Positions 8,060 to 24,692 of a DNA stretch of 64,000 nucleotides are shown here, piece by piece. Below the pieces are notes generated by a model that saw only the letters and a program-made list of their open reading frames with translations, did no database searches and was not told the origin of the DNA. Both the position numbers and the translations under genes were made by a program. The stretch lies in NCBI GenBank assembly GCA_004322045.1, contig SCRN01000036.1, positions 1-64,000 of the forward strand. Reading direction: 5' to 3'. The DNA comes from Paraburkholderia sp. (GTDB lineage Bacteria > Pseudomonadota > Gammaproteobacteria > Burkholderiales > Burkholderiaceae). Every line of letters begins with the position of its first letter. Position 1 is the stretch's first letter.

Positions 8060-8662
8060 TTATGGCCGCAACCAACCCCGACCTATCGGCCCAGCGAATA
8101 CCTTGCGGTACACTGCAATTAATGCCTGAGAGAAAACGTCGCCCCCAAGTCGCCACAGCGGTGCGCTGAGAACGTAGGTCAACCAGGCGATCATCGCCGC
8201 TCCGGCCATGTCAAACGGGAAGTGCACACCGACAAACACGCGCGCCCAGGCGATCGCGATATCGACAGCGAGGGCAAGCATGCCGAGCAGTCGCCTCCCG
8301 CTGTAGAAGAACGTAAAGGATATTGCCGAAAGCAGCGTAGCGTGATCGCTTGGAAACGACGAGTCAGGTGCGTGCGTCAAGAATGTGTGCCCCAGCCCGA
8401 TTGCGAATGGTCGAGGGTGATACCAAGCCATGCCAATCAACTGGTTGATGCCAAGTGCCACAAAGCCAACGAAAGCCGCATGAACAGCGATTCCTCGCCG
8501 ATTGTCTCCGCCTACCAGCCACATGCAGACAAGCATAATTGGAACTGCCCAGATCGCGTAGTTTGCAATGAACACGCTCGCAGCGATGAGCCAGTGCGGC
8601 GTGGCTGGCGTGGCGTTGATCTGAAGAAAAATGGCTTGATTAAATGCTTCGATTGTTTCCAT
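8060..8662 (-). CDS. PAP2-family phosphatase (undecaprenyl-diphosphatase-like)
   Basis: A 200-residue polytopic membrane protein with the three PAP2 signature regions: WYHPRPF (RP of motif 1), SFPSDHATLLSA (motif 2, catalytic His) and ARVFVGVHFPFDM (motif 3, His and Asp). Its size and motif spacing fit BcrC-type undecaprenyl pyrophosphate phosphatases, which recycle the cell-wall carrier lipid at the periplasmic face and can give bacitracin resistance. It is the first of three PAP2-like domains in the window and the only free-standing one. The MFS gene ends just upstream (8694), so the two may be co-transcribed. Substrate is inferred from the family. Confidence 0.85.
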   Translation of the reverse strand: METIEAFNQAIFLQINATPATPHWLIAASVFIANYAIWAVPIMLVCMWLVGGDNRRGIAVHAAFVGFVALGINQLIGMAWYHPRPFAIGLGHTFLTHAPDSSFPSDHATLLSAISFTFFYSGRRLLGMLALAVDIAIAWARVFVGVHFPFDMAGAAMIAWLTYVLSAPLWRLGGDVFSQALIAVYRKVFAGPIGRGWLRP

Positions 8663-8693: not shown

Positions 8694-9899
8694 TCAGCGC
8701 GTGTGCTTTGTCAGGCTTGGCGCAAAGCCGCACATGGCCAGAGGAACGACCGCCAGCGCGGCCCCAACGTAAAACGTCGTCGATGCGCCGTGGCGATCCC
8801 AGAGCCAGCCGGCGATGACGCTCGCGAGTAGCATGCAGATGCCGCTCGCGAGATTAAAGACGCCAAACGCGCTCCCGCGCAGTGTCTGCGGTGCGGTTTC
8901 GGCCACCATCGCGGCGAGAATGCCCTGTGTGAAACCCATGTGCACGCCCCACAGGGCAACGCCGAGGAGCACCATGCCGATCGACGTGCTGGTGCCCAGT
9001 ACCAAATCTGCTGCGATCAGAAGAACCAGCCCGCAGGCGAGGAGAATTCTGCGATCGATGCGGTCTGACAGCGCACCTGCTGGATACGCGGAGAGCGAAT
9101 AGGCGAGGCTCATGACCACCATCACGCCGGGAATCCATGCGACGTTCAATCCTGTCTGCTTGGCGCGCAGCACGAGGAACGCTTCGCTGAAGCGAGTCAG
9201 CGTGAAAGCAGCACCGATCGCGACCACAAACCAGTAGCGGCCGGGGAATTCGGGCAGTGCTCGCCAGTGCAGCGGGGATCGGAAGCGGCGAGACGCGCCC
9301 GCATGGACCGGCTCTTCGATGCCAAAGAGGATCAAGCCGACCGCAATGAATGCAGGCACGACCGCAAACCACAGGACGGTGCGGATATGATCGGCGAACC
9401 AGAGCATCAATACGATGGCGACGAGCGGGCCGGCAAACGCACCGATTGTGTCCATCGACTGCCGAAGGCCGAAGCAGGCTCCGCGGATTTCCGGTGGAGC
9501 GATATCGGCGACGAGTGCATCACGCGGGGCGCCGCGGATACCCTTGCCGACGCGATCGAGCAGACGTGCGGTCACGACGATCGCGGGCGTGCTTGCAAGC
9601 GGGAAAAGCGGCTTGGTGAACGCGGCCAGCCCGTAGCCGAGCAACAGCAGCGCCTTGCGCTTGCCAAGCCAATCACTCACGGGGCCCGAGAAGATCTTGA
9701 CGATCATCGCAGTTGATTCGGCCGCTCCCTCGAGCAAACCGAGTGCCGTGACGCTCATGCCCATCGTGGTGACGAGAAAGATGGGCAACAACGCATGAAT
9801 CAGCTCGGACGACAGATCCATGAAGAGGCTGACAAGCCCAAGCATTCGGACCGCACGAGGGATAGGGACGCGGGCGCTGGCAGAGGTATCAGGTGTCAT
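8694..9899 (-). CDS. MFS transporter
   Basis: A 401-residue protein with about twelve hydrophobic segments and the loop motif SDWLGKRKALLLLGYG after helix 2, typical of the major facilitator superfamily. RLLDRVGKGIRGAPRDA in the next loop marks a subfamily of bacterial MFS proteins whose substrate is not established. It lies 31 bp upstream of the PAP2 phosphatase on the same strand. Export of a small molecule or metal complex is possible, but nothing in the sequence fixes the substrate. Confidence 0.85.
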   Translation of the reverse strand: MTPDTSASARVPIPRAVRMLGLVSLFMDLSSELIHALLPIFLVTTMGMSVTALGLLEGAAESTAMIVKIFSGPVSDWLGKRKALLLLGYGLAAFTKPLFPLASTPAIVVTARLLDRVGKGIRGAPRDALVADIAPPEIRGACFGLRQSMDTIGAFAGPLVAIVLMLWFADHIRTVLWFAVVPAFIAVGLILFGIEEPVHAGASRRFRSPLHWRALPEFPGRYWFVVAIGAAFTLTRFSEAFLVLRAKQTGLNVAWIPGVMVVMSLAYSLSAYPAGALSDRIDRRILLACGLVLLIAADLVLGTSTSIGMVLLGVALWGVHMGFTQGILAAMVAETAPQTLRGSAFGVFNLASGICMLLASVIAGWLWDRHGASTTFYVGAALAVVPLAMCGFAPSLTKHTR

Positions 9900-10042: not shown

Positions 10043-10462
10043 TCACCGATTGTCACTTTCTGCCCCACATACCGCCCTCGAAACAGCGTCAATCTTGCTC
10101 GAGCCAAGAATGGGCTCGAGTTTGCCCACGGAACCGCCGAACTGCGATAGCACCTTTCCGGAGGCATCGAGGAACTTGCCGCCCGCAATGCCATAGCGCG
10201 CGTTCTTGCAGTCCAGCACGAAAAGCGTCATGTCCGCCGTGTAGTGAACCTCAACATCCGTCTGGGGTGACGAATAGAGCGTCTTCGTCCAGACGCTGAT
10301 GAGACCATGCGCGTCCTTCTTCAAAGAGCCAGCATCCACGAAGACTTGGACATCGGGGCTTGCGGCCACGCGCACCCAGGCTGGCTGTGCGATTGCGTCG
10401 ATTGCGGTGATGAAGAGGATCGTCGCCAAGAAGAGGCCTCGTCGCTGCCTCGTCGCTGCCAC
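10043..10462 (-). CDS. Secreted Adhesin_E-like protein
   Basis: From a GTG at 10462 the product is 139 residues with an ideal signal peptide: a basic N-terminus (RQRRG), a hydrophobic core LFLATILFITAI, and a likely cleavage after AIAQ. The mature part (WVRVAASPDVQVFVDAGSLK, two later cysteines, conserved aromatic beta pattern) resembles the surface-adhesin protein E / Adhesin_E domain common in betaproteobacteria. The frame remains open upstream to about 10600 but that part is unlike protein. The start is uncertain; no clear ribosome site is seen. It is the last gene of the long minus-strand block, 138 bp after the DUF2127 gene. Confidence 0.6.
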   Translation of the reverse strand: MAATRQRRGLFLATILFITAIDAIAQPAWVRVAASPDVQVFVDAGSLKKDAHGLISVWTKTLYSSPQTDVEVHYTADMTLFVLDCKNARYGIAGGKFLDASGKVLSQFGGSVGKLEPILGSSKIDAVSRAVCGAESDNR

Positions 10463-10600
10463 GTCGCGACGAGGCGAACAATGCGCAGGGGGGGCACGCG
10501 GCGCGGGTCGAAGATCGCATCGAAGTCGTTCGTGTCTCGATATGTTGTCAGCGGACTCCCCGAATGGTGCTTGCCGAGAGCCGCACGAAACCGGATTCAA

Positions 10601-11110
10601 TCAAGAGCCTGCCGGGGCGATTCTCCGCTCGTTTCGGAGATATCGGTACTCGTGCCACGTGAGCGCGATAATGACGACGTCCAGGGCCGTGATGAGCAGC
10701 AACCATATTGAATGCGTGAAGGTGTATCGGTAAAGTTGGTAGACGATGAACGCACCGAATACGACTATTGAGACGGGGTAATACCAAAGTCTCTCTCGCA
10801 GTAGACCGACGATCAGCCACAGTTTGATCACGCCGTGTCCGAGCAGATAGACGGCCGCGAATTCCCGGGTGCCGATTGAAAGATGCTGTACCGTATGGAG
10901 GAGAAGGTTGGCCACGAGATCGTGCGGATCTTCGACGAACTCTTCCCTGGTGACCCAAAGCACGAGCGTCAGAAAAAGTTGCTGCGGAATGAAATAGGCA
11001 GCAACACCAGCGAGGATTTCCGAAAGCGCGAAAGCAGCCTTGAACCACAGGCTTACCTCGAAGACCAGATGGATCTTCTTTTCATCGAGAAATGTGTTCA
11101 AGCGAATCAC
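10601..11110 (-). CDS. DUF2127-family membrane protein
   Basis: A 169-residue protein from a GTG start with GGAG about eight bases upstream. The N-terminal IHLVFEVSLWFKAAFALSEI and the later LGHGVIKLWLIVGLLRERLW match the DUF2127 family, small proteins with about four transmembrane helices and unknown function. The charged first 14 residues are cytosolic. It follows the DedA-LssY gene by 41 bases in the same direction, so it is likely in the same transcript as the pump and ATPase genes. Confidence 0.75.
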   Translation of the reverse strand: MIRLNTFLDEKKIHLVFEVSLWFKAAFALSEILAGVAAYFIPQQLFLTLVLWVTREEFVEDPHDLVANLLLHTVQHLSIGTREFAAVYLLGHGVIKLWLIVGLLRERLWYYPVSIVVFGAFIVYQLYRYTFTHSIWLLLITALDVVIIALTWHEYRYLRNERRIAPAGS

Positions 11111-11151: not shown

Positions 11152-13200
11152 TCATTCATACCCCGGCGTGTCGGTGTTGGATGCGCCAGACGCTCCTGGT
11201 AGCACCAGCACCGCATCTCGAATCCGATTGTTTTCCGTTATCGAGCGGATCGCGGACCGGCCGCGTAGGTCGAGCAGCGTGACGATCGTCGCGGTGCTCG
11301 TGATGTTCTGCGTGGACGCCAGTATGGAAAGATGCGCGGGCCGAGACAGCGTTTCATGGTAGACGGCTCCGTACCAAAGCGGCTCCGCGCCTTGGGCGCT
11401 CTGAACGACGTAATGCGATGGCCAAAGGCGCAGCACAAACCTGCCGTCGGGCGAATCCGGTTCAGTACGTATGAACGTGAGCTGTGAGTTTTCCCCTCGC
11501 GAGTATTTCGGTAGCATGGGCAATTGAGTCGGCTGGGTCTGGGGCAGCAGCCAGCCCAATGCCGAGTGCACCGACCACGCGGGCGCTGCCAGCCAGCCAA
11601 TTTGCTGCAAGCGCTGCTCGATAGTCCCGGTGCTTGCTGGCCATTGCAGCGATAGTGGCTCTTCCTCGTCGCCGCTGATCTCTGTGCGTCTTGCCGGAAG
11701 CCGCTGCCAGCCGGTGTCCATCCACTCGCCGATCTTCAATGAAGTGACCGTCACCGTGGAAGGGGGCGATGACACCTCGATCGACTGGAGCCCCGCCGGA
11801 ACAGCCCACGATCCCGCGATGGCCAACGAGCCGATTACGACGAGGGCCACGCCCTTGGGGTGCATGTTGTCCCGGACATGCCAGAACGCATAAGCCCCAC
11901 CCAGTATGGCGAACCATGCCAACCCAAGCGCCCAGCCCCCCAGTAACCCGCTCAGCCAGGTTTTACCTAAGTAGAGGTCCGCAAGGCCGCCAACGACGAT
12001 CCAGAGCGCGATGGCAATTGCGACGGCGGTACGCCACGATATCGCTTGCCGACGCGAGATCGCCCACCCCAGAAACGCGTACACGAGAATGTTGAAAGCC
12101 GCCTGTCCATCCGGCAGTGGCGTATGCGGAGCGTTAGGGTGCCAGTCGAGGGGCAACGCACCTCCCGATTTTGCCCAATCGAAGGGTGACAGCACGACGG
12201 CTATTCCTACCAAAATGATCCACCAGACCGCCGTCTTCCAGCTTCGCCTCAGGACAAACCATACCAGCACGGCAGACGCCATCGCGAAACCGACGACGCG
12301 ACCATTCAACGCAGCGATGCTTGCCATCACCGCGTCGGCCGGCGTTGCATGCAGCGATTGCAGGAACGTATAAAGTGATGTATCAGCCCGCATCAGCGGA
12401 TCGTTGGCAATCACGTCCTGCAAGACGCCACCGAAGAGCCATACACTGGCAATAAGGAGCAAGGCGAATGCCGAAACGGTAGGGAACTCAGGATCGTCGA
12501 GTTTGATGACTCGTTGTACGCGGTCTCCGAACCGGGGGAAGCGACGCGCCATCACGAGCATCGCGTGCCGCGCGGTGTGCTTCGCGGCGGGAATCCCTCG
12601 CGTGATCGTCAGTCGAGCCAAGCGGACGACGAGGTAAAGCAGTACCACGAGAAGAATCAGCGCAGCGGCCAGGCGCGTGCTGACCGCTTCCGCCAAGGCG
12701 GCCGACGCGCCGAAGACGATACCGGGTATGAGATTGATCGGCGCCCAGATCACCGCTGAGACGACGTTGGCGGAGTAAAACCTCAACCGCCCCAGATGCG
12801 CGGTGCCGACCAGAAGCGGCACGATAGAACGCACCGGTGCGAAGAATCGGGCGAGCAAGAGGCTCCTGCCCCCGTGCCGCTTGACGAACTGCTCACCGCG
12901 CACCCAACGGACCTCATGCCCCTTCGCCTGGAACCATGAGCGGACCTTGCCGTGAAAGCGGCGGCCCAATTCGTAGCTCAGACCGTCACCCACGATTCCA
13001 CCCAGAGCGGACAACGCGATCGTCAGCCACCCGTCGAGCACCCCCGCACCGACGAGGGCGCCCGCGAAAAACATGACGATACTCGCCGGCACCATCGCGA
13101 TCGTACCCACAACTGCGATCGCTTCGGCAGCCGCGATGGCAAATACCACGGCCAATACGAGAAAGGGGTGGTTGCTGATCGATACAAGCCAGGTATGCAT
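11152..13200 (-). CDS. DedA (VTT) - degenerate PAP2 - LssY_C fusion protein
   Basis: A 682-residue membrane protein. The start at ATG 13200 is chosen because AAGGAG sits six bases before it. Residues about 10-200 are a DedA/VTT domain (ARFFAPVRSIVPLLVG is the family signature), a fold linked to lipid scrambling and proton-coupled membrane homeostasis. Residues about 235-440 align with a PAP2 domain but the catalytic residues are lost: KSGGALPLDW near 342 for KxxxxxxRP, LPDGQAA near 360 for PSxHA, and GLADLYLGKTWLSGLL near 403 for SRxYLGVHWVSDV. The remaining C-terminus resembles LssY_C. The upstream gene is the ATPase-PAP2-LssY fusion, whose PAP2 is intact. Function of the fusion is unknown. 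Confidence 0.85.
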   Translation of the reverse strand: MHTWLVSISNHPFLVLAVVFAIAAAEAIAVVGTIAMVPASIVMFFAGALVGAGVLDGWLTIALSALGGIVGDGLSYELGRRFHGKVRSWFQAKGHEVRWVRGEQFVKRHGGRSLLLARFFAPVRSIVPLLVGTAHLGRLRFYSANVVSAVIWAPINLIPGIVFGASAALAEAVSTRLAAALILLVVLLYLVVRLARLTITRGIPAAKHTARHAMLVMARRFPRFGDRVQRVIKLDDPEFPTVSAFALLLIASVWLFGGVLQDVIANDPLMRADTSLYTFLQSLHATPADAVMASIAALNGRVVGFAMASAVLVWFVLRRSWKTAVWWIILVGIAVVLSPFDWAKSGGALPLDWHPNAPHTPLPDGQAAFNILVYAFLGWAISRRQAISWRTAVAIAIALWIVVGGLADLYLGKTWLSGLLGGWALGLAWFAILGGAYAFWHVRDNMHPKGVALVVIGSLAIAGSWAVPAGLQSIEVSSPPSTVTVTSLKIGEWMDTGWQRLPARRTEISGDEEEPLSLQWPASTGTIEQRLQQIGWLAAPAWSVHSALGWLLPQTQPTQLPMLPKYSRGENSQLTFIRTEPDSPDGRFVLRLWPSHYVVQSAQGAEPLWYGAVYHETLSRPAHLSILASTQNITSTATIVTLLDLRGRSAIRSITENNRIRDAVLVLPGASGASNTDTPGYE

Positions 13201-13210
13201 GGACATCTCC

Positions 13211-16200
13211 TTATCCACACGTGCCGTTTGGTATGTATTGTGGCGTCCGATTACCCGCCGCATCAGGGAGTGTTACGGTGCAGAGGAGCCATACACGCCC
13301 ATCCCAGCGCTGGAAAGCAGCGCTGACCGGATCGTCCCGTGTAACGCCCTGCGCACCGGCGAATTGCCTCGCGAACGCGGCGGCCGGCACCGTGAAGTCC
13401 TCGTCGGGCGACTGAACCGAGAACGACCACGCGATTCCTGTCGTGGGAAGTTCGCGCGTCACCGTACCCGTCCAGATCGGAACGGTACCGTGCGTCGAGC
13501 CGGGCAGCGCCATCTCAGCGGCCGGCCAGAGCCGCAACACGAGCAGCGTGCCTCGCGCCCCGTCGGAAAAGCGGACGAACGCCATTGCGGGAACTGCGCC
13601 CTCGTGGAACTCAAGCGCAATGGCGGGTGCCGCCCGCACGCCGCGCGTTGCCGGCGCGGCAGGCCAGGCCAGGTTGCTGCGGGCCGCCTGCCACCCGTTC
13701 GCTTCCATCACGCGTTCGATCGTCCGCGCGGTGGCGGCCCACTGGACGTTGAACGGCTCATCGATTCTGCCGACCGCCGCCACGCGCCCGACCGGCAGCG
13801 TTTGCCACGCGCCCCCTCGCCACTGGGTAGCCGTCATCCGCTCGACCCGCTCGACCGGGCGGTAAAGCACGACGTCCACCGCGTGGCGTCGCACGATATG
13901 CAGCGTGGCGCCGGCCAGCAACGTCAACGCGACGAGCACCATCAGCCGCTTCGCGCCGATCGGCTCGATGGTCCGAAGCGAATAGCCGACGGCGAGCACG
14001 GTGACCCAGGCGAGCCCAAAGCTCAGGCCAGCGACAACATCGGAGACCCAATGCACCCCCAGATAGAGGCGCGACGCCGCAATGAGCGAGACGGCCACCG
14101 CGGTGACGAGCACGATGGCCGTTCGCTGCCGATGTCGCTGCCCGTCGCACAGCAGGAACGCGAGGAATCCGTACGTGACGATGGCGAGCGTCGCGTGACT
14201 GCTCGGGAACGAAAAGCTCTCGGCACCGCTCGCGAACGGGTTCGGGCGGACGCGATGCAGCGCCAGCTTCAGGAGCTTGACGATGACCTCCGCACCGCCC
14301 ACCGCGGCCAGCCAGTAGATCGCGGCGCGCCATCGCCGGTGCCACACGAACCACGACAGGACGACCAGCACGACGGGGACCACGACGGCGGCGTCGCCTA
14401 GCTCGGACATGGCGGTCATCCACGCGTCGAGCGGCGGTGTGCGGACGTGCTGCAGCGTGCGATAGACAATGAGGTCCGCCTGCATCAGTGGGTCCTTCGA
14501 CAGCACGTCTTCCAGCACGCCGAGGAACAGCCACGCGCTGCCGCCGAATATCAGCACCGATATGGGGATGAGCGCCTTGTGCCGACGCCACAACGCCAGC
14601 AAGGCGCGTGTCGCCGACAGGATCGGCGGTTCGGCAGGAAGCACCGGAGATTTCTGGATGGCGTCGGAACGTGACGTTACCCCACGCAGCGCGGAGCACG
14701 CCAATACGATCATGCCGATCGCCCCTAGCCAGATGCGCAGCGGAAGCGGTTCGAGCGCAAAGAAGGCGCGCAAGAGCGCCGTGCTTGCGACTACTACAAA
14801 GGATGCGGCCATCGCCGCAACGATGCCGACGCGCAGGCGGGTCAGCGGCCGCACCAGCAGAGCGACGATCCACAGCGCGATGCCGAACAGCGTCAACGTT
14901 GCCGCGCTGCGTGCCTGTTCGAGCGTGCCGTGCAGGTAGCTGAGCGTGACGGAATACGCGGCGAACGTCGCGATCGCCGCGAGGACGCCCGCCGGCACCG
15001 TGAAGCGCAGCACGCGCTCTACGAAGCCGCGGCGCGCGCGTTCCGCGGTCGGTTCGAGCGAGAGAAAGAACGCCGGGATGCCGATGGTAAGCGAACCGAC
15101 GAGCGTCAGGTGTCGCGGCAAGAATGGAAATGCGAGATCGGCGACGCCGATCGCAAACGCGAGCAGCATCACGTAGACGGTCTTGGTCACGACCAGGTTC
15201 GCGACCCGTTCGACGTTGCCGATCACGCGCCGGCCTTCGTTGACGATCGACGGCAGGCTCGCGAAGCGATTATCGGTCAGCACGGCCTGGGCCACCGCCG
15301 CCGCCGCGCCGCTGCCGCCCCCCATCGCGATGCCGATGTCGGACTCCTTGAGCGCGAGCAGGTCGTTCACGCCGTCGCCGATCATCGCGACCACATGGCC
15401 GCGGGCGCGCAGCGCCGTCACCATCGCCGCCTTCAGGGTTGGCGAGACGCGGCCGAACACGGTCTCTCGCTCCATCACGTCGCCGAGCTGGCTGGCGCTT
15501 TCCGGCAGCGTGCGCGCGTCAATGCCGGCTCCGGTGCCGGCGATGCCCGCGCGCTGCGCGACTTCGGCGGCCGTGTCCGGATGATCTCCGGAGATCACCT
15601 TGAGCGACACGCCCTGCGCGGCAAAGTAAGCGACGGTTGACTGCGCATCGGCACGGATGCGCTCCGCGAGCAGCACCAGCGCGACGGGTGTGATCGCATC
15701 GGGCAGCCCGTCCGCGACGAGGGCCGCGTCGGACCGTGCGAGCAGCAGCACCCTGCGGCCTTCGCGCGCATGGGCGGACACGGTCCGGCGCAGTTCGTCC
15801 GCGGCCGCCGTCCCGCCGAGCAGAACATCCGGCGCGCCCAGTAGCCACGTGCCATGGCCGTCAAACGACGCACTCGCCCATTTCCTGGCCGACGAGAACG
15901 GGACGGCATGGGTCGCATGCCATGCCGGCGATGCGTCGCAGCCCGCCGCAATCGCGCGCAGCGTCGCGTTCGGTGCGGGATCGCTCCGCACCAGCGCGCT
16001 GAGCGCATCGTGGGCATCGGCGTCGCCGTCAAGGCGTTCCAGGCGCTCCATGACAGGCTCCCCTTCCGTCAGCGTGCCGGTCTTGTCGAGACAGAGCACG
16101 TCCACACGCGCGAGGGTCTCGATGGCGGGCAGTTCCTGCATGAGGGCGCCACGTTGCGCCAGCCGTACCGCACCGATGGCGAGCGCCACGCTCGTCAGCA

Positions 16201-17017
16201 ATACCAGCCCTTCGGGCACCATGCCGGCGACCCCGCCCGCGGAATAGAGCAGCGCCTCATTGAGCGACGTGCCCCGCAGCAACTGGGTCGCCACCATCAA
16301 CGCCGACAGCGGCACGATCACCCAGCCGACGTAGCGCAGCATGCGATTAATGCCGGCGCTCAGTTCCGACTGCGGCGGCACGAAACGCCGTGCCTGCGCC
16401 GCGAGCTGGTGGGCCCAGGCGTCGCGTCCGACCCGCGTGGCCCGAACCCATCCCTGCCCGGCGACGACGAAGCTGCCCGACAGCAACTCGGATTCGGGCG
16501 TTTTGGTCTGCGGTTCGGATTCTCCCGTCAGCAGGGATTCATCGATCTCGAGCCCGTTCGCCGCGCACACGACGCCATCGACGACAATCTGGTCGCCTCG
16601 TTCGACGGCGATCAGGTCGTCCTTCACGATGTCGCCCAGCAAGACCTCGATCGTCTGCCCCTCGCGGCGTACTCGCGCATGCGGCTGGTGCAGCAGCGCG
16701 AGCCGGTCGAGCTGACGTTTCGCCCGCCACTCCTGAACGATCCCGATGAGCGAGTTCGTGATCAGCACGCCGCCAAAGAGCGCATCCTGCCAGGGGCCGA
16801 CGGCAAGCACCACGGCGCATAGCGTGCCTAAAAGCGCGTTGAAGCGCGTGAACATGTTGGCGCGCACGATCTCGCCAAGGCTGCGGCTCGTCTGCCGCCG
16901 GACGCGGTTGATCTCGCCGCGGCTTCGGCGTTCGGCCACCTCGGCCACGCTGAGGCCGTTCGGAAGATCCGCCATCGCCGGCTGCTCAGTCACTTGTCGT
17001 CTCTCGGTTCGACTCAC
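13211..17017 (-). CDS. CtpE-like P-type ATPase fused to PAP2 phosphatase and LssY_C domain
   Basis: A 1268-residue protein from a GTG that overlaps the RND stop (GTGA). Residues 1 to about 790 are a complete P-type ATPase: ESLLTGES (about 160), GMVPEGLVLLTSVALAIGAV (265-284), DKTGTLT (311-317) and MIGDGVNDLLALKESD (545-560). The MVPEGL helix-4 motif is that of CtpE-type, Ca2+-linked ATPases rather than the CPC motif of copper pumps. Residues about 800-1010 are a PAP2 phosphatase with all three motifs intact: K-x6-RP near 917, SFPSSHATL near 936 and ASRLYLGVHWVSDV near 981. Residues about 1040-1250 are an LssY_C-like domain. The fusion suggests cation transport coupled to hydrolysis of a lipid phosphate, but this is inference. 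Confidence 0.9.
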   Translation of the reverse strand: MSRTERRQVTEQPAMADLPNGLSVAEVAERRSRGEINRVRRQTSRSLGEIVRANMFTRFNALLGTLCAVVLAVGPWQDALFGGVLITNSLIGIVQEWRAKRQLDRLALLHQPHARVRREGQTIEVLLGDIVKDDLIAVERGDQIVVDGVVCAANGLEIDESLLTGESEPQTKTPESELLSGSFVVAGQGWVRATRVGRDAWAHQLAAQARRFVPPQSELSAGINRMLRYVGWVIVPLSALMVATQLLRGTSLNEALLYSAGGVAGMVPEGLVLLTSVALAIGAVRLAQRGALMQELPAIETLARVDVLCLDKTGTLTEGEPVMERLERLDGDADAHDALSALVRSDPAPNATLRAIAAGCDASPAWHATHAVPFSSARKWASASFDGHGTWLLGAPDVLLGGTAAADELRRTVSAHAREGRRVLLLARSDAALVADGLPDAITPVALVLLAERIRADAQSTVAYFAAQGVSLKVISGDHPDTAAEVAQRAGIAGTGAGIDARTLPESASQLGDVMERETVFGRVSPTLKAAMVTALRARGHVVAMIGDGVNDLLALKESDIGIAMGGGSGAAAAVAQAVLTDNRFASLPSIVNEGRRVIGNVERVANLVVTKTVYVMLLAFAIGVADLAFPFLPRHLTLVGSLTIGIPAFFLSLEPTAERARRGFVERVLRFTVPAGVLAAIATFAAYSVTLSYLHGTLEQARSAATLTLFGIALWIVALLVRPLTRLRVGIVAAMAASFVVVASTALLRAFFALEPLPLRIWLGAIGMIVLACSALRGVTSRSDAIQKSPVLPAEPPILSATRALLALWRRHKALIPISVLIFGGSAWLFLGVLEDVLSKDPLMQADLIVYRTLQHVRTPPLDAWMTAMSELGDAAVVVPVVLVVLSWFVWHRRWRAAIYWLAAVGGAEVIVKLLKLALHRVRPNPFASGAESFSFPSSHATLAIVTYGFLAFLLCDGQRHRQRTAIVLVTAVAVSLIAASRLYLGVHWVSDVVAGLSFGLAWVTVLAVGYSLRTIEPIGAKRLMVLVALTLLAGATLHIVRRHAVDVVLYRPVERVERMTATQWRGGAWQTLPVGRVAAVGRIDEPFNVQWAATARTIERVMEANGWQAARSNLAWPAAPATRGVRAAPAIALEFHEGAVPAMAFVRFSDGARGTLLVLRLWPAAEMALPGSTHGTVPIWTGTVTRELPTTGIAWSFSVQSPDEDFTVPAAAFARQFAGAQGVTRDDPVSAAFQRWDGRVWLLCTVTLPDAAGNRTPQYIPNGTCG

Positions 17018-20000
17018 GCAGGCGCGGGGCCGGGTTCTGCCAGCGTGTCGCGCTCAAAACGCCCGTAACGCAACGTCAGGGTCGGCAGCACGATCAGGTT
17101 GAGCGCGGTCGACGTGATCAGGCCGCCGAGAATGACGATTGCCATCGGCCCCTCGATTTCGTTACCTGCCGCTCCGCTCGTCAAGGCGAGCGGAGCCAGC
17201 GCGAGCGCGGTGACGAGCGCGGTCATCAGAATCGGCACCAGACGCTCGGATGCCCCGCGCACCGCCGTATCCATGTTCCACGTCAACTGATCGATATGCA
17301 CCAGGTGCTCATAGTGGCTGATCAGCATGATCGAGTTTCGCAGTGAGATGCCAAACAATGTGACGAAGCCCACCATACCACCGAGCGACAGGTTCGCCCC
17401 CGTCAGCACGACGCTCAGCACCCCGCCGACAAGTGCAAAGGGCAGGTTGACCATGACGAGCAACACGCCGCGGCGGCTTTTCATTGCGAGGAACAGCAGC
17501 AGCGCGATGCCGATCAGCGAAATCCCCCCGTATGCAAGCAAGTCGCGCTGCGATTGCGCACGCGCCTCGCTCTCTCCGCTGAAGACGGCGTAGGTGCCCG
17601 GCGGCATTTTGATCTCGCGGTTCACGCGCGCCTGGGCTTCATTGACGAAATCACTGGCCGGCCGGCTGCCGAGATTGACTGACACCGTTTGCACGCGCTG
17701 GCCGCCGTCGTGAGTGATCTGATAGCGGCCGGCGACCTGGCGGATCGTCGCAAGTGTGCTCAGCGGAACGGAAAACCCGTCTGCATTGCGCACCATGAGC
17801 TTCCCGATGTCGCCGACCGTCTTGCGCTGCGCCGGGTCGAGCACCACCGCGACGTCATAGGTGCGGCTGCCCTTGTAGATCTGCGATACCGTTGCGCCCG
17901 CATAGGCGGCCTGGAGCGTATCGAGCACTTCGACGGGCCGGAAGCCCCAGCGGCTCAACACGTCCGGCTTGAGCTTCACGTCGAGCTCGGGTATGCCGGG
18001 AGGCGAATCCACCCGCACGCTGGCAACGCCGTGGATCGTGCCGATCAGCTGAGCGATCTGCTGCGCCGTGCGATCGATGACGTCCAGATTGTTGCCGAAC
18101 ACTTTCACGACCACCGGGGCCGTCGTACCCGAAATGGTTTCGTCGATACGTTCCTCAAGAAACGTGTTGACCGACGTGCTCAGGCCCGGGAAGCGCGCCA
18201 GCGCCTGGCGAATCCGATAGAGCGCCCAGTTTTGGCCCGATGCGCCCATCGGCTTCAAATCGACCTCGAACTCGGAGAGCTGCACGCCGGTCGGATCGAC
18301 CACACCGTTCGCGCGGCCTGCGCGCTGCGCCACGAGACGCACGCCGGGCACCTGCATCAATGCCTTCGATACCTGCGTGCCGATCCGCATCGATTCCGCG
18401 AGCGATGTGCCGGGCTCGAGCCCCATGTGGACGATGTAATGGCCTTCGCGCAGTTGTGGAATGAAATTCCCGCTCAAGAACGGCAACGACGCGAGCGCAG
18501 CGACACACATTAGTGCCACCATCACCATGACCCCCTTCACATGCTGCTCGACCTTCGTCAGCAGCGCGATATAACGCGCCTTCAGGCGCGCAACGAGACG
18601 TGGTTCATGCTCGGGCAAAGGCCCTCTCGCCAGCAGTGCGAGCGCCATTGCCGGCGTGAGCGTCAATGCGACCCCGAGCGACGCGAGCACGGCCAGTATG
18701 TAGGCAATGCCGAGTGGCGCGAAGAGCCGCCCGCCGACGCCCGAGAGCGTGAGCACGGGCAGGAAGATCAGCATCACGATGAAAGTGGCGAACACCACGG
18801 CGCTACGGACTTCGAGTGAAGCACGCAGCACGACGCGAAACGCGGGCAGCGGCTGAGCCGACTTGCGGTTCTCCCGCAAGCGGCGAAAAATGTTCTCGAC
18901 GTCGATGATCGCATCGTCCACCACCTCGCCGAGCGCGATCGCGAGGCCGCCCAAGGTCATTGTGTTCAGACTCACGCCGAACTTGGTCAGCACGATGATC
19001 GCAACCAGCAGCGATAGGGGAATCGCCACGGCCGAAATCACCGCGGTGCGCACGTTGAGCAGGAACAGGAACAGCACTGCAATCACAAGCACTGCGCCCA
19101 CGAGCAGCGCGTTGCGCAAGTGACCGACCGCCGCGTCGATGAAATTGGCGGGCCGGAAGACGTTCGCGGTCACGTCGACACCTTGCCGTGCGAGCGCCGG
19201 CTTGAGTCCGACGAGCGCATTTTCGATGTCATTCGTCACGGCCAACGTGTTGGTGCCATACTGGCTTTCCAGCACGACCATCACGCCGGGCTTGCCCATG
19301 ATCGAAGCCGCTCCGACAGGCGGTGCACTGCCCCACGCCACGTTCGCGACATCGCCGAGACGAACCGCCGCCCCGTTGCTCGAACGGAGTACGACGCCAG
19401 CCAGTTTCTCCGGCGTAGCGATCTGGCCATCGGCATTGACGGCGATGCGCTGATTCGTGTTCTCGATGAATCCGGCGCCACGCACCCCAGTGGCTTGACG
19501 GGCTGCGGCAATCACGTCCTGAATCGACAGTCCATAGCGCATCAACTTCGCGGGGTCGACCTGGATCTGCATTTGGGGCGTCTCGCCACCGAACACGATG
19601 ACATCGGCCACGCCGGGAACGCTCAGCAACTGCGGCTTGACGGTCCAATTTGCGATGTCGTAGAGGTCCGCGAGCGAGCGCGTCTTCGACGTGAGGCCGA
19701 TGATGCGCACGACGCTCGTCGTGGTAGTGAGCGGCAAAAGCCGCGGCGGCTTGACGCCCGCAGGCAGCGTGGCCGCGAGCCCATTGATGCGCTCGGTGAC
19801 GAGCTGCCGCACCTGCATCACGTTTGCATGGTCATCGAAGACGAGCGTGATCGCTGAGAGGCCCTGCATTGACCTCGACCGCATTGACTGCAGACCGACC
19901 ATGCCGCCGAGGGCGTTTTCGAGCGGCTGCGTAACGAGCGTTTCTACCTGCTCGCTGGTCATACCCGGCGCTCCGGTCTGCACGATGCTCATCGGCGGTG

Positions 20001-20127
20001 CGAATTCGGGAAAGACATCGAGCTTGGCACGTGTCAGCGTAAAGAGCCCGTAGCCGGCCGCGATAACGGCCAGCGCGTAGATGACGCCGCGAAAGCGCAG
20101 CGAAAAGCGGATGATCGCGTTGAGCAT
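17014..20127 (-). CDS. Heavy-metal-efflux-type RND transporter permease
   Basis: A 1037-residue RND inner-membrane pump. The N-terminal LDVFPEFAPPMSIVQT and the helix-4 motif GLAIALGEVVDDAIIDVENI place it in the HME (CzcA/CusA-like) branch. The DD pair there (GEVVDDAIIDVEN) differs from both the CzcA-type and the CusA-type motifs, so the metal cannot be read from the motif. The methionine cluster of CusA is not evident by eye. It forms a tripartite pump with the adaptor and outer-membrane factor encoded upstream; the stop overlaps the start of the P-type ATPase fusion, so their translation is coupled. Confidence 0.93.
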   Translation of the reverse strand: MLNAIIRFSLRFRGVIYALAVIAAGYGLFTLTRAKLDVFPEFAPPMSIVQTGAPGMTSEQVETLVTQPLENALGGMVGLQSMRSRSMQGLSAITLVFDDHANVMQVRQLVTERINGLAATLPAGVKPPRLLPLTTTTSVVRIIGLTSKTRSLADLYDIANWTVKPQLLSVPGVADVIVFGGETPQMQIQVDPAKLMRYGLSIQDVIAAARQATGVRGAGFIENTNQRIAVNADGQIATPEKLAGVVLRSSNGAAVRLGDVANVAWGSAPPVGAASIMGKPGVMVVLESQYGTNTLAVTNDIENALVGLKPALARQGVDVTANVFRPANFIDAAVGHLRNALLVGAVLVIAVLFLFLLNVRTAVISAVAIPLSLLVAIIVLTKFGVSLNTMTLGGLAIALGEVVDDAIIDVENIFRRLRENRKSAQPLPAFRVVLRASLEVRSAVVFATFIVMLIFLPVLTLSGVGGRLFAPLGIAYILAVLASLGVALTLTPAMALALLARGPLPEHEPRLVARLKARYIALLTKVEQHVKGVMVMVALMCVAALASLPFLSGNFIPQLREGHYIVHMGLEPGTSLAESMRIGTQVSKALMQVPGVRLVAQRAGRANGVVDPTGVQLSEFEVDLKPMGASGQNWALYRIRQALARFPGLSTSVNTFLEERIDETISGTTAPVVVKVFGNNLDVIDRTAQQIAQLIGTIHGVASVRVDSPPGIPELDVKLKPDVLSRWGFRPVEVLDTLQAAYAGATVSQIYKGSRTYDVAVVLDPAQRKTVGDIGKLMVRNADGFSVPLSTLATIRQVAGRYQITHDGGQRVQTVSVNLGSRPASDFVNEAQARVNREIKMPPGTYAVFSGESEARAQSQRDLLAYGGISLIGIALLLFLAMKSRRGVLLVMVNLPFALVGGVLSVVLTGANLSLGGMVGFVTLFGISLRNSIMLISHYEHLVHIDQLTWNMDTAVRGASERLVPILMTALVTALALAPLALTSGAAGNEIEGPMAIVILGGLITSTALNLIVLPTLTLRYGRFERDTLAEPGPAPA

Positions 20128-20168: not shown

Positions 20169-21233
20169 TCAGTCGTCACACTCGGGCGGATCCTTGCAGG
20201 CCGTGGCAATGCCTTGCGGCTTGAGTTCTTCGGAGAGCAGCAATTGCGCACCCTGCGTCACGATCTGGTCGTCGGCGTGGAACCCGGACGTGACCGTGAA
20301 CCCGTGATCGCCCTCGTCACCGGCAGGCACGAAGTGCCGCGTAAAGCGGTTGGAAGCCGTCCGCACATAGGCCCACGTCTGTCCGCCGTACCACACCACG
20401 GCCCGTTCGGGGATCAGTAGGCCGGACACGGCCTGGCTCGACGTCGGCACGCGCGCGCTGGTGCGCAAATTCGCAGGCAGTGCATCGTCGGCGACGTAAA
20501 GCCAAGGGCTGCCCTGCACGGCCGGATCGGCGAGAGGCGAGGCGGAAAGCTTTTGAGCCGGCACCGAGCGGCCATCGGGCGTATCGATCGCGATACGCGC
20601 AGGCGGCACCACGCCGAAGCTCGCAGGTAACGTGACGCGCAGCACGACAGCCTGGCCGGACTCGAGGCGCTGGAACAGCGTCGAGGCCGGTGTTGCTGCG
20701 GCATTCGCGAGTGTGTCGCCGAACTGCTGCCGCATCGCGGCATTCAGCCCGTTCAGCGTGGCATTGGCCGATTGCAGTTTCGCTTCGTCGGCTTTCATGG
20801 CCGACTGCGCATCCTGCAGGCTCTTTTGCGAAATATTGCGGTCGTCGGCGAACAGTGCATGGCTGCGTTGGTACTGCGCCCGCGAACTGGCCGCCTGCGC
20901 GGTGAACGTGCCAACGTCCGCGCGAGCGCTAGCCAGGCGGTTGTGCAAATCGAAGAGCGGCTGCAGATCGATGACCGTGGCATAGGCACTAACGTCGGGC
21001 TGGCTCGCGACGGCCCTGAGCGGCGCAACCTCGATGTGGCTGGCGCGTTGCTCCTCGGCGCCGATGACGACCACCGTTTCGCCGTTTACTGTCTGTACGG
21101 CGGGGGGCGGGGCCGATTGCGCCGCCGCGGTTGCCGAGGCACTTGAGTCCTGGAACGTCTGATAGATGTACCAGCCAGCGCCTGATGCCAAGGCCAGCGA
21201 TACGACGGAGAGAAGGATCAGTCGGAGTTTCAT
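20169..21233 (-). CDS. RND periplasmic adaptor (membrane fusion protein)
   Basis: A 354-residue protein with an N-terminal membrane anchor or signal (LILLSVVSLALASGAGWYIY) and an Ala/Pro-rich linker. A long helical hairpin follows (AQAASSRAQYQRSHALFADD and neighbours, about 95-160), then beta-barrel and membrane-proximal domains. The family order is kept, including the conserved late segment GFHADDQIVTQGAQLLLSEE. It bridges the RND pump and the outer-membrane channel. The start codon overlaps the stop of the outer-membrane factor gene (ATGA). The C-terminus ends with a Cys-x5-Cys pair (CKDPPEC), unusual for adaptors, which could bind metal or form a disulfide. Confidence 0.9.
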   Translation of the reverse strand: MKLRLILLSVVSLALASGAGWYIYQTFQDSSASATAAAQSAPPPAVQTVNGETVVVIGAEEQRASHIEVAPLRAVASQPDVSAYATVIDLQPLFDLHNRLASARADVGTFTAQAASSRAQYQRSHALFADDRNISQKSLQDAQSAMKADEAKLQSANATLNGLNAAMRQQFGDTLANAAATPASTLFQRLESGQAVVLRVTLPASFGVVPPARIAIDTPDGRSVPAQKLSASPLADPAVQGSPWLYVADDALPANLRTSARVPTSSQAVSGLLIPERAVVWYGGQTWAYVRTASNRFTRHFVPAGDEGDHGFTVTSGFHADDQIVTQGAQLLLSEELKPQGIATACKDPPECDD

Positions 21234-22630
21234 CGTGGCGTCTCTTCACTGAGGGTATCGCTCACCGCCTCGTGACCGAGGGGTTGCTGCATCGCATCTT
21301 CGAGTGCGCCGGCGGCTTGCTGGACCGCGACCGCGGCGTCGAGATGAAGGGTTTCGCTGGTCTGATAGTCAGCCTTCGCCTGCGTGTAAGTCAGACGGTC
21401 TGCATCGCCGTTGGCGAAAGCTGCGGCCTGGCTGTCGAGTTGTCTGCGGGCACTCACGAGATGTGCGTCGGACAGACGTAGTGCTTCAACGCTCGACTGG
21501 TAGCGCGCCAGCGCGTGTGCGAGATCGCCGAGGATCTTGTCCTGCAGCGCGCCGGTACGGGCTGCCGCTTCCTTGCGCCTGGCCTCGGCTGCATGGATGC
21601 CGCCTTGATTCTGGTTGAAGATCGGCAACGTGATGCCGGCCAGCCCGAACGCGATCTTGTGCGTGCCCGTGTCATACGTGTAGCCGGGCCCGAGGTGGAT
21701 GTTCGGATATTGCTTTGCAACCTCGAGCTGGAGCGCCGATTCGGCCGCGGCGTAATCGGCGAGCGACGCGAGCAGATCGGCGCGATGGAAGATCGCCGCG
21801 CGCTGCGCATCCGCGGCCGGCGGCGCAGGGGAAATCGCACCGAAGGCGGAGAGATCGATCGCGACGCCGTCGAGCGCGGCGACAGGCACGCCGATGGCAG
21901 CAGCGAGTTGTGCATGCGAATCCTGTTCGGCACTGCGCGCCGCAGCCAGATCGCTTTGAGCCTGGGTGTCGGCCAGGATGGCGGAATCGACGTCGGGCCG
22001 CGAGAACTGGCCCACCGCCAGACGCTTGCGGCTCATCTCGGCAATTTGCCGCTCGGCTTCGGCCTTGGTCGACAGGAATGCGATGCGCTTTCGGGCGGCG
22101 TAGAGGGCGAGCATCGCATCCCGGACTTGCGCACGAACCTTCCACGCCTCATTGACGAGGCTCAGCCGCGCGGCTTCCGACAAGTGCGTGGCCTGATCGG
22201 CGCGATATCCACGCTTATGCGCTGTCTCGATCGGAATATCGAGCGCCGGGCCCAACGTGATCGGAGATCCCGGTCCGGGGTTGGGTGTGGAATACTGAAA
22301 CGGCAACTGCAGAACCGGGTTGGGGATCGTGTCGGCGACATCGATGCCGGCCTTGGCGGTGTCCCATTGGGCGCGCGCGACGTCGAGGGCGGGATTGTAG
22401 TAGAAGGCTGCCAGCGTGAGCATTTCGCGACTCCAGTGCGCGGGTGGCCACGGTGCGACATCGTGTCTTGTTTCGCGCACGACGAAGGCGTGCAACTCCT
22501 TGCTCGCAAGCGAGCGCTGCTCGAATTGACGGGCAAGCTGGGCTGGGGCGATCGGCTGGGGGTGATAGGTCGTACAGCCGGCCAGCCCGACGAAGGTAAT
22601 CAATAACGCTCGGCGCATTCTGGCATCCAT
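21230..22630 (-). CDS. TolC-family outer membrane efflux lipoprotein
   Basis: A 466-residue protein with a lipoprotein signal peptide (lipobox LAGC near residue 18) and the repeated long-helix pattern of TolC/CusC-type outer membrane factors, for example ALDVARAQWDTAKAGIDVAD and PNPVLQLPF. It supplies the outer-membrane exit duct for the pump encoded by the next two genes. An ATG four codons downstream (22618) is an equally possible start. It is 69 bp downstream of the histidine kinase gene on the same strand. Confidence 0.9.
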   Translation of the reverse strand: MDARMRRALLITFVGLAGCTTYHPQPIAPAQLARQFEQRSLASKELHAFVVRETRHDVAPWPPAHWSREMLTLAAFYYNPALDVARAQWDTAKAGIDVADTIPNPVLQLPFQYSTPNPGPGSPITLGPALDIPIETAHKRGYRADQATHLSEAARLSLVNEAWKVRAQVRDAMLALYAARKRIAFLSTKAEAERQIAEMSRKRLAVGQFSRPDVDSAILADTQAQSDLAAARSAEQDSHAQLAAAIGVPVAALDGVAIDLSAFGAISPAPPAADAQRAAIFHRADLLASLADYAAAESALQLEVAKQYPNIHLGPGYTYDTGTHKIAFGLAGITLPIFNQNQGGIHAAEARRKEAAARTGALQDKILGDLAHALARYQSSVEALRLSDAHLVSARRQLDSQAAAFANGDADRLTYTQAKADYQTSETLHLDAAVAVQQAAGALEDAMQQPLGHEAVSDTLSEETPR

Positions 22631-22699: not shown

Positions 22700-24013
22700 T
22701 CAATAAGGTGCCAGACCATCGCGAAACCCGACTGCTTCGGGCTTCGCGGACGGCAAACGCAACGAAACGCGGGTGCCGCGATCGGGCTCGCTCGCGAGTT
22801 CGATCGACCAGCCGTATCGATCGCAGATCTTTTTGACGATCGACAGACCAATACCGATGCCGCACTTCTCGGTTTGTTGCCCGTCCGCCTGGTAGAACCG
22901 ATCAAAAACGTATGGCAGCGCCTGCGTCGGAATACCGGGTCCGGTGTCCTCGATACGCAGCCACCCGTCTGAGTAGGAAAAATGCACATGTCCACGGTCG
23001 GTATGCCGCACAGCGTTGTCGATGAGGTTGGATAGCACGACCGCAAGCGCGGAACGGTTCACTACGACGTGAAGATTGCGATTCACGTCAATGACGGCCT
23101 CGAGCCTCTTTTTCGCAACGCGATCGGCAAAAGGCATCAGCGCACTTTCAATCAGATTTGCCACAGCCACCGGTTCGACATCGTGCGCGGAATCTTCTCT
23201 GGCGAGCATCAGCAATGCGTTCGTGAGTTCACGCATAGTGTCGGCCGCGCACTCGATCTGCTGGAGCCGCGTGCGCGACTTCCCGCTGATCGCGGCATCC
23301 TGCGCAAGCAGTTCGCAACTCGTCTTGATTGTCGTGAGGGGCGTGCGCAGTTCGTGGCTCACATTGCCAGTAAACTCCTTCTCCCGCTCGATCATGTCGG
23401 CCATGCGCCGATGGTAGTCGTTGAAGGCCTCGACCAGTCCTACGAGTTCCGTTTCATCGTACTTGCCGGGTTGGATCGACGGCGATTCTCCGAACCTGAG
23501 CATCTTCACTTGGCGTGCGAGACCGGCTACCTGCCGCACCAGCAGGCCCGACAGACCGAAGGAGAGCCAAATCGTGAGCAGCGCAAAGACGCCCGTGCCG
23601 GCCATCAAGGCATTGATGACTCCCTTGAAATGGCGCTCGTAGGCGCTGAAGTTGTAGACGCGATACAAGCGCGTCATACCGAAGGGTACGATCGCGACGT
23701 GGATCTCCCGTCCGTTGATGATAATCTGATGCGTCCCGACCGGCAGATCCGTGGCCGATGCCGGTAGAACAATTGGCGGACGGTCTGAGGTCGACACGTA
23801 GCCGTTCATACGTTGGTCGAACGGAGGCAGTAAAGCCGGATTGGCTTCGTAGCTCCTGAGCACATTGGCCATATCGTCGTGGATCAGCGCCACGATCAGT
23901 TTCTCTTCCTGTGCTTCGGCCAGCGTTCTTACGCCTAGCGCCTGGGCGAGCAGCAGAGCGATGGTCAGCACGGAGAACACAAGCGTGACCTTTAGACGAG
24001 GGCTACGCCCCAT
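22700..24013 (-). CDS. Sensor histidine kinase
   Basis: A 437-residue kinase from ATG 24013; the frame is open further upstream but that part overlaps the response regulator. It has two membrane helices flanking a periplasmic sensor of about 140 residues (28-165), a HAMP-like linker, the phospho-acceptor motif NVSHELRTPL, an N box NLIDNAVRHT, and G boxes DTGPGIP and GIGIGLSIV. It pairs with the response regulator whose end it overlaps by eleven bases. The position upstream of the efflux genes implies that it reports the pump substrate or envelope stress, but the signal is not known. Confidence 0.92.
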   Translation of the reverse strand: MGRSPRLKVTLVFSVLTIALLLAQALGVRTLAEAQEEKLIVALIHDDMANVLRSYEANPALLPPFDQRMNGYVSTSDRPPIVLPASATDLPVGTHQIIINGREIHVAIVPFGMTRLYRVYNFSAYERHFKGVINALMAGTGVFALLTIWLSFGLSGLLVRQVAGLARQVKMLRFGESPSIQPGKYDETELVGLVEAFNDYHRRMADMIEREKEFTGNVSHELRTPLTTIKTSCELLAQDAAISGKSRTRLQQIECAADTMRELTNALLMLAREDSAHDVEPVAVANLIESALMPFADRVAKKRLEAVIDVNRNLHVVVNRSALAVVLSNLIDNAVRHTDRGHVHFSYSDGWLRIEDTGPGIPTQALPYVFDRFYQADGQQTEKCGIGIGLSIVKKICDRYGWSIELASEPDRGTRVSLRLPSAKPEAVGFRDGLAPY

Positions 24014-24692
24014 TACGACCACTCCCAACGAGTCGATAGCCGACACCATGGACCGTCTCGATGAGGTCTGTTTGCCCTGGAGCGGTGAGTGCGCGGCGCA
24101 GGGTGTAGACATGCGCGCGCAGCGTGTCGCTGTCGGGGAGTTCTTCGCCCCAGACTTCAGTTTCGAGTTCGGCGCGACTGAACATGCGGTTCGGTGACTG
24201 CATCAGAACACGCAGCAACTGCAAACATTTTGGCGGGAGCTTGACGGGGCGACCGGCGCGTTCGACTGTCATCGTCGACAGGTTGAGGAACACATCTGCA
24301 AACCGAAGATCCATGGGCGCAACGCGGCCCCGGTAGCGCTTGATCAGGGCGCTGAGCCGCGCGCCAACCTCCTTCAGAGAAAACGGTTTGACCAGATAGT
24401 CATCGGCGCCGTGCACAAAGCCCTCGAGTTTGTCGTCGAGCGCGTCTCGGGCGGTCAGCATCAGCACCGGCGTGTCCCGGCGCGCTTCACCGCGCAGCTT
24501 ACGACAGAGCATCAGTCCGTCCATGCCGGGCAATGACAGATCAAGCAGGATCGCATCCCACGAGTCGGCGAGAGCCATCTGTAGGCCCGTCCTACCATTG
24601 GAAGCGACATCGACCTCGTAGCCGCTCTCCTCCAGATAGTCGTAAAGGTTCGCGGCGATCGCCGCATCGTCCTCGACAATGAGCACCTTCAT
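24003..24692 (-). CDS. OmpR-family response regulator
   Basis: A 229-residue regulator. The receiver domain has the acidic pair in VEDDAAIAANL, the phospho-accepting Asp in ILLDLSLPGMDGL (near residue 51), the Thr/Ala switch in MLTARDALDD and the Lys in YLVKPF. The C-terminal winged helix has RAELETEVWGEE and LRAHVYTLRRAL, typical of OmpR/PhoB. It overlaps both neighbours: its start overlaps the stop of the upstream kinase (ATGA) and its end overlaps the start of the next kinase. Confidence 0.93.
   Translation of the reverse strand: MKVLIVEDDAAIAANLYDYLEESGYEVDVASNGRTGLQMALADSWDAILLDLSLPGMDGLMLCRKLRGEARRDTPVLMLTARDALDDKLEGFVHGADDYLVKPFSLKEVGARLSALIKRYRGRVAPMDLRFADVFLNLSTMTVERAGRPVKLPPKCLQLLRVLMQSPNRMFSRAELETEVWGEELPDSDTLRAHVYTLRRALTAPGQTDLIETVHGVGYRLVGSGRNGA

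Follow-up and report, generated by a model that had tools for sequence, protein, structure and literature searches.

The window, by which we mean the whole stretch of 64,000 nucleotides that was analysed (Paraburkholderia sp., assembly GCA_004322045.1, contig SCRN01000036.1), carries an operon in which a P-type ATPase, a PAP2 phosphatase and an LssY_C domain are encoded by one gene. The features of the locus are as follows.

8060..8662, minus strand: stand-alone PAP2 phosphatase, like the YbjG-type undecaprenyl-diphosphate phosphatase (below the NCBIfam cut-off)
8694..9899, minus strand: MFS transporter
10043..10600, minus strand: surface-adhesin E family protein
10601..11110, minus strand: DUF2127 membrane protein
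11152..13263, minus strand: DedA (VTT)-PAP2-like-LssY_C neighbour gene, its PAP2 part lacking the catalytic motifs
13211..17017, minus strand: P6-type P-type ATPase-PAP2-LssY_C fusion of 1268 codons, or 1260 amino acids if counted from the probable start at residue 9
13214..13837, minus strand: LssY_C part of the fusion, predicted periplasmic, residues 1061 to 1268 (Pfam, model, helix count and charges)
13838..14632, minus strand: residues 796 to 1060 of the fusion, comprising a linker and a PAP2 part with a seventh helix (Pfam, motifs, model, fold match 5jki, tree)
14633..16993, minus strand: P6 ATPase part, residues 9 to about 795 (Pfam, motifs, alignment, tree, 1200-residue model)
17014..20127, minus strand: RND permease, CusA/CzcA-like (nearest solved structure ZneA)
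20169..21233, minus strand: periplasmic adaptor (MFP) of the RND pump (TIGR01730 below cut-off; a plasmid homologue is annotated 'metal transporter')
21230..22630, minus strand: TolC-type outer-membrane factor (Pfam)
22700..24112, minus strand: sensor histidine kinase (Pfam)
24003..24692, minus strand: response regulator (identified from where it lies and from a nucleotide alignment to the response regulator annotated in pB1701)

The three-part fusion is a real single protein-coding frame. It has no internal stop, and the GTG start codon at 17017 overlaps the stop codon of the RND gene as GTGA, in agreement with the initial annotation, which had placed an RND pump next to it. A second GTG, at residue 9 and about 20 bases past the RND stop, is the start of three of the five other genes with this architecture (tri-fusions); of the remaining two, one starts at residue 15, and in the other the open frame continues upstream. 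Because the starts of the other tri-fusions fall mostly at residue 9, the protein probably has 1260 residues. The frame had been described, with no strand stated, as carrying a full set of ATPase motifs followed by a PAP2 domain with three catalytic motifs and by LssY_C, and on the minus strand all of these are found. The ATPase motifs TGES, PEGL, DKTGT and GDGVND lie at residues 164, 268, 311 and 547. The motif set of PAP2 phosphatases is KX6RP, PSGH and SRX5HX3D in the accessible text of PMC4790310; its counterparts in the fusion lie at 917, 938 and 982, the second being the variant PSSH. Pfam matches above the cut-offs comprise E1-E2_ATPase (134.5 bits), Hydrolase (63.4) and PAP2 (60.4). 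LssY_C (PF14067) scores 24.2 bits, just below the cut-off of 25, and it reaches 28.3 and 30.5 bits in the homologues from pB1701 and genome G355.

Five further distinct genes with the same domain order, 64-88% identical, were found in sampled Burkholderiaceae including one plasmid; the hosts of these tri-fusions are 4 of the 398 sampled genomes of the family and one Burkholderia contaminans plasmid, which fits the restricted distribution that the initial annotation had named as support. Seven genes in other families are ATPase-PAP2 bi-fusions that end before LssY_C. The fusion genes thus number 13, including six tri-fusions with that of the window, where two candidates were scored per genome and copy counts are lower bounds. 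While the order given in the initial annotation stands, the core unit has to be corrected to ATPase-PAP2, since LssY_C is absent from 7 of the 13 genes. Among the 80 loci listed from a scan of genome contigs, no frame matches both halves of the fusion. Among the 5000 plasmid records listed, one covers at least 80% of the query, and none of the 124 matching phage records covers more than 80%. PADLOC gave no match, leaving a role as a defence system without support.

In five pairs of homologues dN/dS lies between 0.15 and 0.39 in each third of the fusion, which indicates that purifying selection acts on all three thirds, LssY_C being the fastest-changing. An assembly or frameshift artefact that merged separate genes, named beforehand as a possible refutation, was not found and is rejected on the strength of the five other distinct genes of the same order and the purifying selection in every third. 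Three of the 13 copies (G355, G609 and G695) carry altered PAP2 motifs, although the ATPase motifs checked in them are intact, and strict coupling through PAP2 catalysis is therefore not general. We found no description of the tri-domain protein in literature searches that covered the three domains together, DedA with LssY and PAP2, and P-type ATPase-PAP2 fusion proteins with RND, and in which the listed LssY matches were judged by title; nor did abundant described fusions of this order, which had also been named beforehand as a possible refutation, appear in the literature searched. The accessible text of the 2023 review of these ATPases (PMC10654040) contains no mention of fused, fusion or PAP2.

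Motifs and phylogeny place the ATPase part in the CtpE or 'P6' kind, the branch to which it had been assigned at the outset. The accessible text of the same review sets P6 ATPases apart by PEGL in TM4 and by Ile replacing the TM6 Asp (PMC10654040), and the fusion has PEGL in TM4 and Ile at residue 645, the position of the TM6 Asp of Ca2+ efflux pumps. Among 97 rows of a P6 set picked by locus number, the TM6 Asp occurs in none, TM5 carries Lys or Arg in 96, and the TM4 Glu is kept in 46, a count that includes all 12 of the aligned fused copies; PEGL therefore does not define the wider clade. In a quick tree, from which mycobacterial CtpE is absent, 47 rows form a clade apart from 5 P2-like rows (SH-aLRT 100). 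The 12 fused ATPases form one clade in this tree (SH-aLRT 99), and several separate origins of the ATPase-PAP2 fusion are accordingly unsupported. The accessible text on CtpE, the characterised P6 ATPase, reports that it is a Ca2+ importer (PMC5615198, PMC10654040) and is needed for cell-surface integrity (PMC5615198). P6 ATPases are described there as new and poorly understood, the one studied member seeming to pump Ca2+ backwards (PMC10654040). CtpE and other P6 ATPases share with the fusion both signature features, and P6 rows share its clade as against P2 pumps in the quick tree, but CtpE is described as having 791 residues and ten helices and no PAP2, whereas in the fusion PAP2 and LssY_C follow. 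P6 ATPases without PAP2 are widespread.

The PAP2 part is modelled with a PAP2 fold, and the model matches a solved phosphatidylglycerolphosphate phosphatase (5jki); structure matches of the PAP2-LssY_C model fell on the PAP2 part. The PAP2 active site and LssY_C are predicted to face the periplasm. The nearest PAP2 relatives are stand-alone Burkholderiaceae genes, which form one clade with the fused PAP2 parts (98/99 support); they adjoin RND operons or P-type ATPase genes and differ from the fusion in having neither ATPase nor LssY_C. Relatives in the tree are mostly stand-alone genes, including L130, which is tagged REM by length. Within one larger clade that also holds stand-alone genes, the PAP2 parts of tri-fusions and those of bi-fusions each form a clade of their own, and the tree supports no particular branching order among the three groups. 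A remnant in genome G178, which consists only of the last ATPase helices and PAP2, is nested among stand-alone PAP2 genes, and this suggests that the stand-alone PAP2 of that line lost its ATPase.

An RND permease gene lies directly upstream of the fusion gene in 13 of 13 cases. Of the neighbours named beforehand as support, RND and two-component genes, the former is thus present in every case, and the latter were seen in the operon of the window. The permease of the window, for which CusA is also among the nearest solved structures, scores 699.3 bits against the CusA/CzcA model TIGR00914, below its cut-off of 701.45, and the RND genes next to four of the bi-fusions share no more than 27-29% identity with it; a metal substrate is therefore not secured there. 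The operon is also found without the fusion gene, which shows that the RND pump can do without the fusion. For comparison, an RND gene is present in the flanks of 1 of 91 loci with unfused P-type ATPases, mostly P6, although many of the hosts have no outer membrane and the flanks are short at some of the loci.

Two further known arrangements resemble the fusion. PbrA and PbrB, as described for lead resistance in Cupriavidus metallidurans, likewise bring together a P-type ATPase and a membrane undecaprenyl-pyrophosphate phosphatase in a metal-resistance setting. However, they are two separate proteins rather than one chain, their regulator is the MerR-type PbrR whereas the operon of the window has two-component genes, and the RND pump and LssY_C are extra in the fusion system. 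PbrA, described as a Zn/Cd/Pb pump, has CPC in TM4; this motif was not found in TM4 of the fusion ATPase, which is of the PEGL type. The second arrangement is the 'bifunctional DedA family/phosphatase PAP2 family protein' (VTT-PAP2-LssY_C), which occurs in the same operons with the same body but bears a VTT head in place of the ATPase, and whose copy in the window lacks PAP2 motifs. The bodies are collinear, and most of fusion residues 815-1250 is 36-40% identical to the nearer DedA-headed relatives. VTT proteins include undecaprenyl phosphate transporters. An origin of the fusion from its DedA-PAP2-LssY_C neighbour, by exchange of the head, can be rejected because the PAP2 part of this neighbour falls on a distant branch.

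Each copy examined adjoins an efflux pump gene, which points to pumping and phosphate release as joint activities, probably directed against toxic metals. As the likeliest reading, we tentatively propose that the fusion serves a metal-efflux operon as its inner-membrane pump and brings its own source of phosphate, in the manner of PbrA and PbrB, whose separate pump and phosphatase are a described way to lead resistance. The P6 part would move a divalent cation over the inner membrane, and the periplasm-facing PAP2 site would take phosphate off undecaprenyl pyrophosphate or off a lipid phosphate related to it. Some of the cation could then be trapped in the periplasm by the phosphate freed beside the pump, a reaction that would also regenerate the carrier lipid; the RND pump would remove the remaining cation, and LssY_C may place the enzyme near the exporter. 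Counting against metal export are the opposite direction reported for CtpE, Ca2+ import, the PEGL in place of the CPC of soft-metal pumps, the altered PAP2 motifs of G355, G609 and G695, and the occurrence of the operon without the fusion. We know of no metal-dependent expression or phenotype of the fusion.

The direction reported for CtpE, its link to surface integrity, the P6 signature residues and the TM4 Glu of every aligned fused copy would instead fit envelope maintenance, in which the pump imports Ca2+ or another hard cation and the PAP2 part, with the DedA and PAP2 neighbours, recycles undecaprenyl phosphate and phospholipids upon metal or other envelope damage, the two being joined for shared location rather than to trap cations with phosphate. 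Lipid-carrier genes are indeed abundant in the operon (DedA-PAP2-LssY_C and the YbjG-like PAP2). A hard-cation importer is nevertheless an odd partner in an exporter operon with metal-resistance surroundings, and the near absence of RND genes beside unfused loci, a weak control, also speaks against envelope maintenance, which we regard as possible but somewhat doubtful. It is unlikely that the PAP2 is a loose passenger, a spare lipid phosphatase fixed by joint transcription while the domains act alone. The altered PAP2 motifs, the LssY_C that is absent from 7 of 13 genes and changes fastest, the G178 remnant and the mostly stand-alone PAP2 relatives agree with this, but the junction is kept in 13 genes spanning 52-100% identity, with every third under purifying selection.

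Closer integration with lipid metabolism appears improbable. The P6 ATPase might be built into an undecaprenyl-lipid machine, powering return of the carrier after its own PAP2 has dephosphorylated it, or tightly coupling cation transport to that dephosphorylation; within such a machine, P6-PAP2-LssY_C might be the ATP-driven counterpart of DedA-PAP2-LssY_C that feeds the RND exporter. We consider it very improbable that the P6 module itself moves lipid, with the ATPase spending ATP to bring the carrier, once dephosphorylated, back to the cytoplasmic leaflet. DedA and P6 as alternative heads on one collinear body would be consistent with lipid transport, as would the match of the neighbour's VTT part to UptA models, which lies below the cut-off. 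However, the TM4 PEGL is of the cation-pump type, a DedA module is already present wherever one operon holds both genes, and, among the P6 ATPases that occur without PAP2, the single member studied transports Ca2+.

These fusions offer a concrete handle on the function of P6 pumps: in each of the 13, pump and lipid phosphatase form one chain encoded next to an exporter gene, and with so clear a partner direction and substrate become testable. The Lys or Arg in TM5 is likewise a testable candidate for their odd transport behaviour. If the reading modelled on PbrA and PbrB is true, metal export and phosphate trapping would be built into one molecule.

In the window, a P6-type (CtpE-type) P-type ATPase, a PAP2 domain and an LssY_C domain share a single frame:

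13211-17017, minus strand: P6 ATPase-PAP2-LssY_C fusion (P0001), open frame of 1268 codons

Pfam analysis placed E1-E2_ATPase, Hydrolase and PAP2 above their cut-offs in the fused protein; LssY_C scored 24.2 bits against a cut-off of 25, which it exceeded in two homologues. The ATPase motifs TGES, PEGL, DKTGT and GDGVND were found, as were all three PAP2 motifs. The GTG start overlaps the RND stop codon, and a length of 1260 amino acids is likelier because three of the five other proteins of this three-part order (tri-fusions) begin at residue 9; either start is compatible with the suggested co-translation with the RND gene.

P6 pumps are set apart, in the review PMC10654040, by PEGL in TM4 and an Ile in place of the TM6 Asp, and the ATPase part has both features. 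Among 97 P6 rows picked by locus number, none carries Asp at the TM6 place, and 96 have a basic TM5 residue at P0001 position 612 (62 Lys, 34 Arg), a candidate signature of P6 pumps. The TM4 Glu, present in 46 of the 97 rows, is retained in all 12 aligned fused copies. The closest solved structures are SPCA1 and the Listeria Ca2+-ATPase by sequence, and the latter by fold.

An identical copy of the gene occurs in G001, a genome of a different species of the genus. Further tri-fusions are found in the window's own genome (contig C52, 88% identity), on G001 contig C59 (83%), in genomes G390 (68%) and G355 (64%), and on Burkholderia contaminans plasmid pB1701 (69% over 1264 positions), where the annotation reads only 'HAD-IC family P-type ATPase'. 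The ends of the G390 protein are uncertain, since its last residues and upstream frame end deviate. Of 398 genomes sampled from the family, 4 carry tri-fusions, as does one plasmid record among the 5000 matches listed. Bi-fusions, which lack LssY_C, are 52-58% identical to the window gene and were found in 5/399 genomes of the order (G516, G441, G667, G609, G695), in 1/369 of the class (G1108) and in four of 67 genomes of one family, where G1516 was added and the other three had been counted before. The phylum sample of 398 genomes yielded no fusion besides that of the window's own genome.

From end to end, the window matches part of G001 contig C5 at 99.97-100% identity, apart from one insertion of ~2.6 kb in G001. 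At the window start lie:

43-3890: conjugative coupling protein (TraG-like) and primase genes

Together, these genes and the near-identity across species point to a mobile element. Both genomes hold a second, diverged operon copy.

A quick tree groups the 12 fused ATPases in a single clade with SH-aLRT 99, divided into tri- and bi-fusions. The PAP2 tree recovers the same groups, each supported, within a larger clade (98/99) to which seven PAP2 genes that stand alone and a remnant also belong. This remnant (genome G178, locus L187, 2307-3596) comprises 429 residues, with the last ATPase helices and an intact PAP2; the 19 kb fetched for this locus contain no RND gene. Each third of the fusion has a dN/dS of 0.15-0.39 in the five pairs compared; LssY_C changes fastest between close copies. 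The fusion appears to have a single origin and to be maintained by selection.

An RND permease gene lies directly upstream of the fused gene, on the same strand, in 13/13 cases; in a weak control, an RND gene was found in the fetched flanks of 1/91 loci with unfused P-type ATPases. Identity to the window's RND protein is 81-96% for tri-fusion partners (some compared over fragments), 58% beside the G516 and G441 bi-fusions and 27-29% beside four bi-fusions of one family. The G355 RND appears as two overlapping frames, and the partner of the G1108 bi-fusion matches another window gene:

38789-41863: second RND permease, sharing 49% identity with the RND partner of the G1108 bi-fusion

The operon also occurs without the fusion: in B. 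contaminans ZCC it lacks both the fusion and the DedA-PAP2-LssY_C gene, and in B. cenocepacia pBCEN1232 it has the latter only. An RND operon can therefore carry the fusion or do without it. IS256 copies flank a pstS gene close to the B. cenocepacia operon (L140, 19742-20794). The tri-fusion operons of C52 and G355 show no DedA-PAP2-LssY_C gene directly 3' of the fusion.

In the window, the DedA-PAP2-LssY_C neighbour (11152-13263) has a PAP2 domain without motif residues (no PSGH, no SRX5HX3D), as do its homologues at loci L137, L119 and L028 and, in part, L140; a degraded PAP2 stands beside the intact one of the fusion. Among fused copies, PAP2 motifs are altered in G355, G609 and G695; the G609 bi-fusion (L183, 10572-13724) has altered residues in all three and intact ATPase motifs. 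Stand-alone PAP2 relatives have an RND operon at 4/6 genome loci, and 2/7 lie next to a P-type ATPase gene of the CPC or TPC type, one of them downstream in the same orientation; locus L193 has neither. At L190 (12643-14931) a TPC-motif P-type ATPase with a C-terminal hemerythrin domain is convergent with a stand-alone PAP2 gene. A Rhizobium lusitanum plasmid (L198, 4644-9110) carries ChrB, MFS, PAP2 and DedA/PAP2 genes in series, another metal-linked setting of PAP2/DedA lipid genes.

The P6, PAP2 and LssY_C families are each already known. The literature searched gave no description of the P6-PAP2 order, with or without LssY_C, and this combination in one chain appears to be new.

PMC4790310 describes the pump PbrA and the C55-PP phosphatase PbrB, which jointly precipitate lead in the periplasm. 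The best-supported reading, still tentative and somewhat short of an even chance, is that one chain would likewise pump metal and supply phosphate. Pump and phosphatase are paired in both systems, in one chain here. The RND partners, whose nearest solved relatives are ZneA and CusA, the metal genes surrounding the operons of pB1701 and ZCC, and the RND operons or P-type ATPase genes beside stand-alone PAP2 relatives were counted in its favor. Against it were counted the direction reported for CtpE (Ca2+ uptake, in PMC5615198 and PMC10654040), the altered PAP2 motifs, and PEGL in place of the CPC of soft-metal pumps. DKTGT and PEGL, the ATPase motifs checked, are retained in 13/13 fused genes, which argues that the pump is the constrained part of the fusion and that the phosphatase is useful but dispensable.
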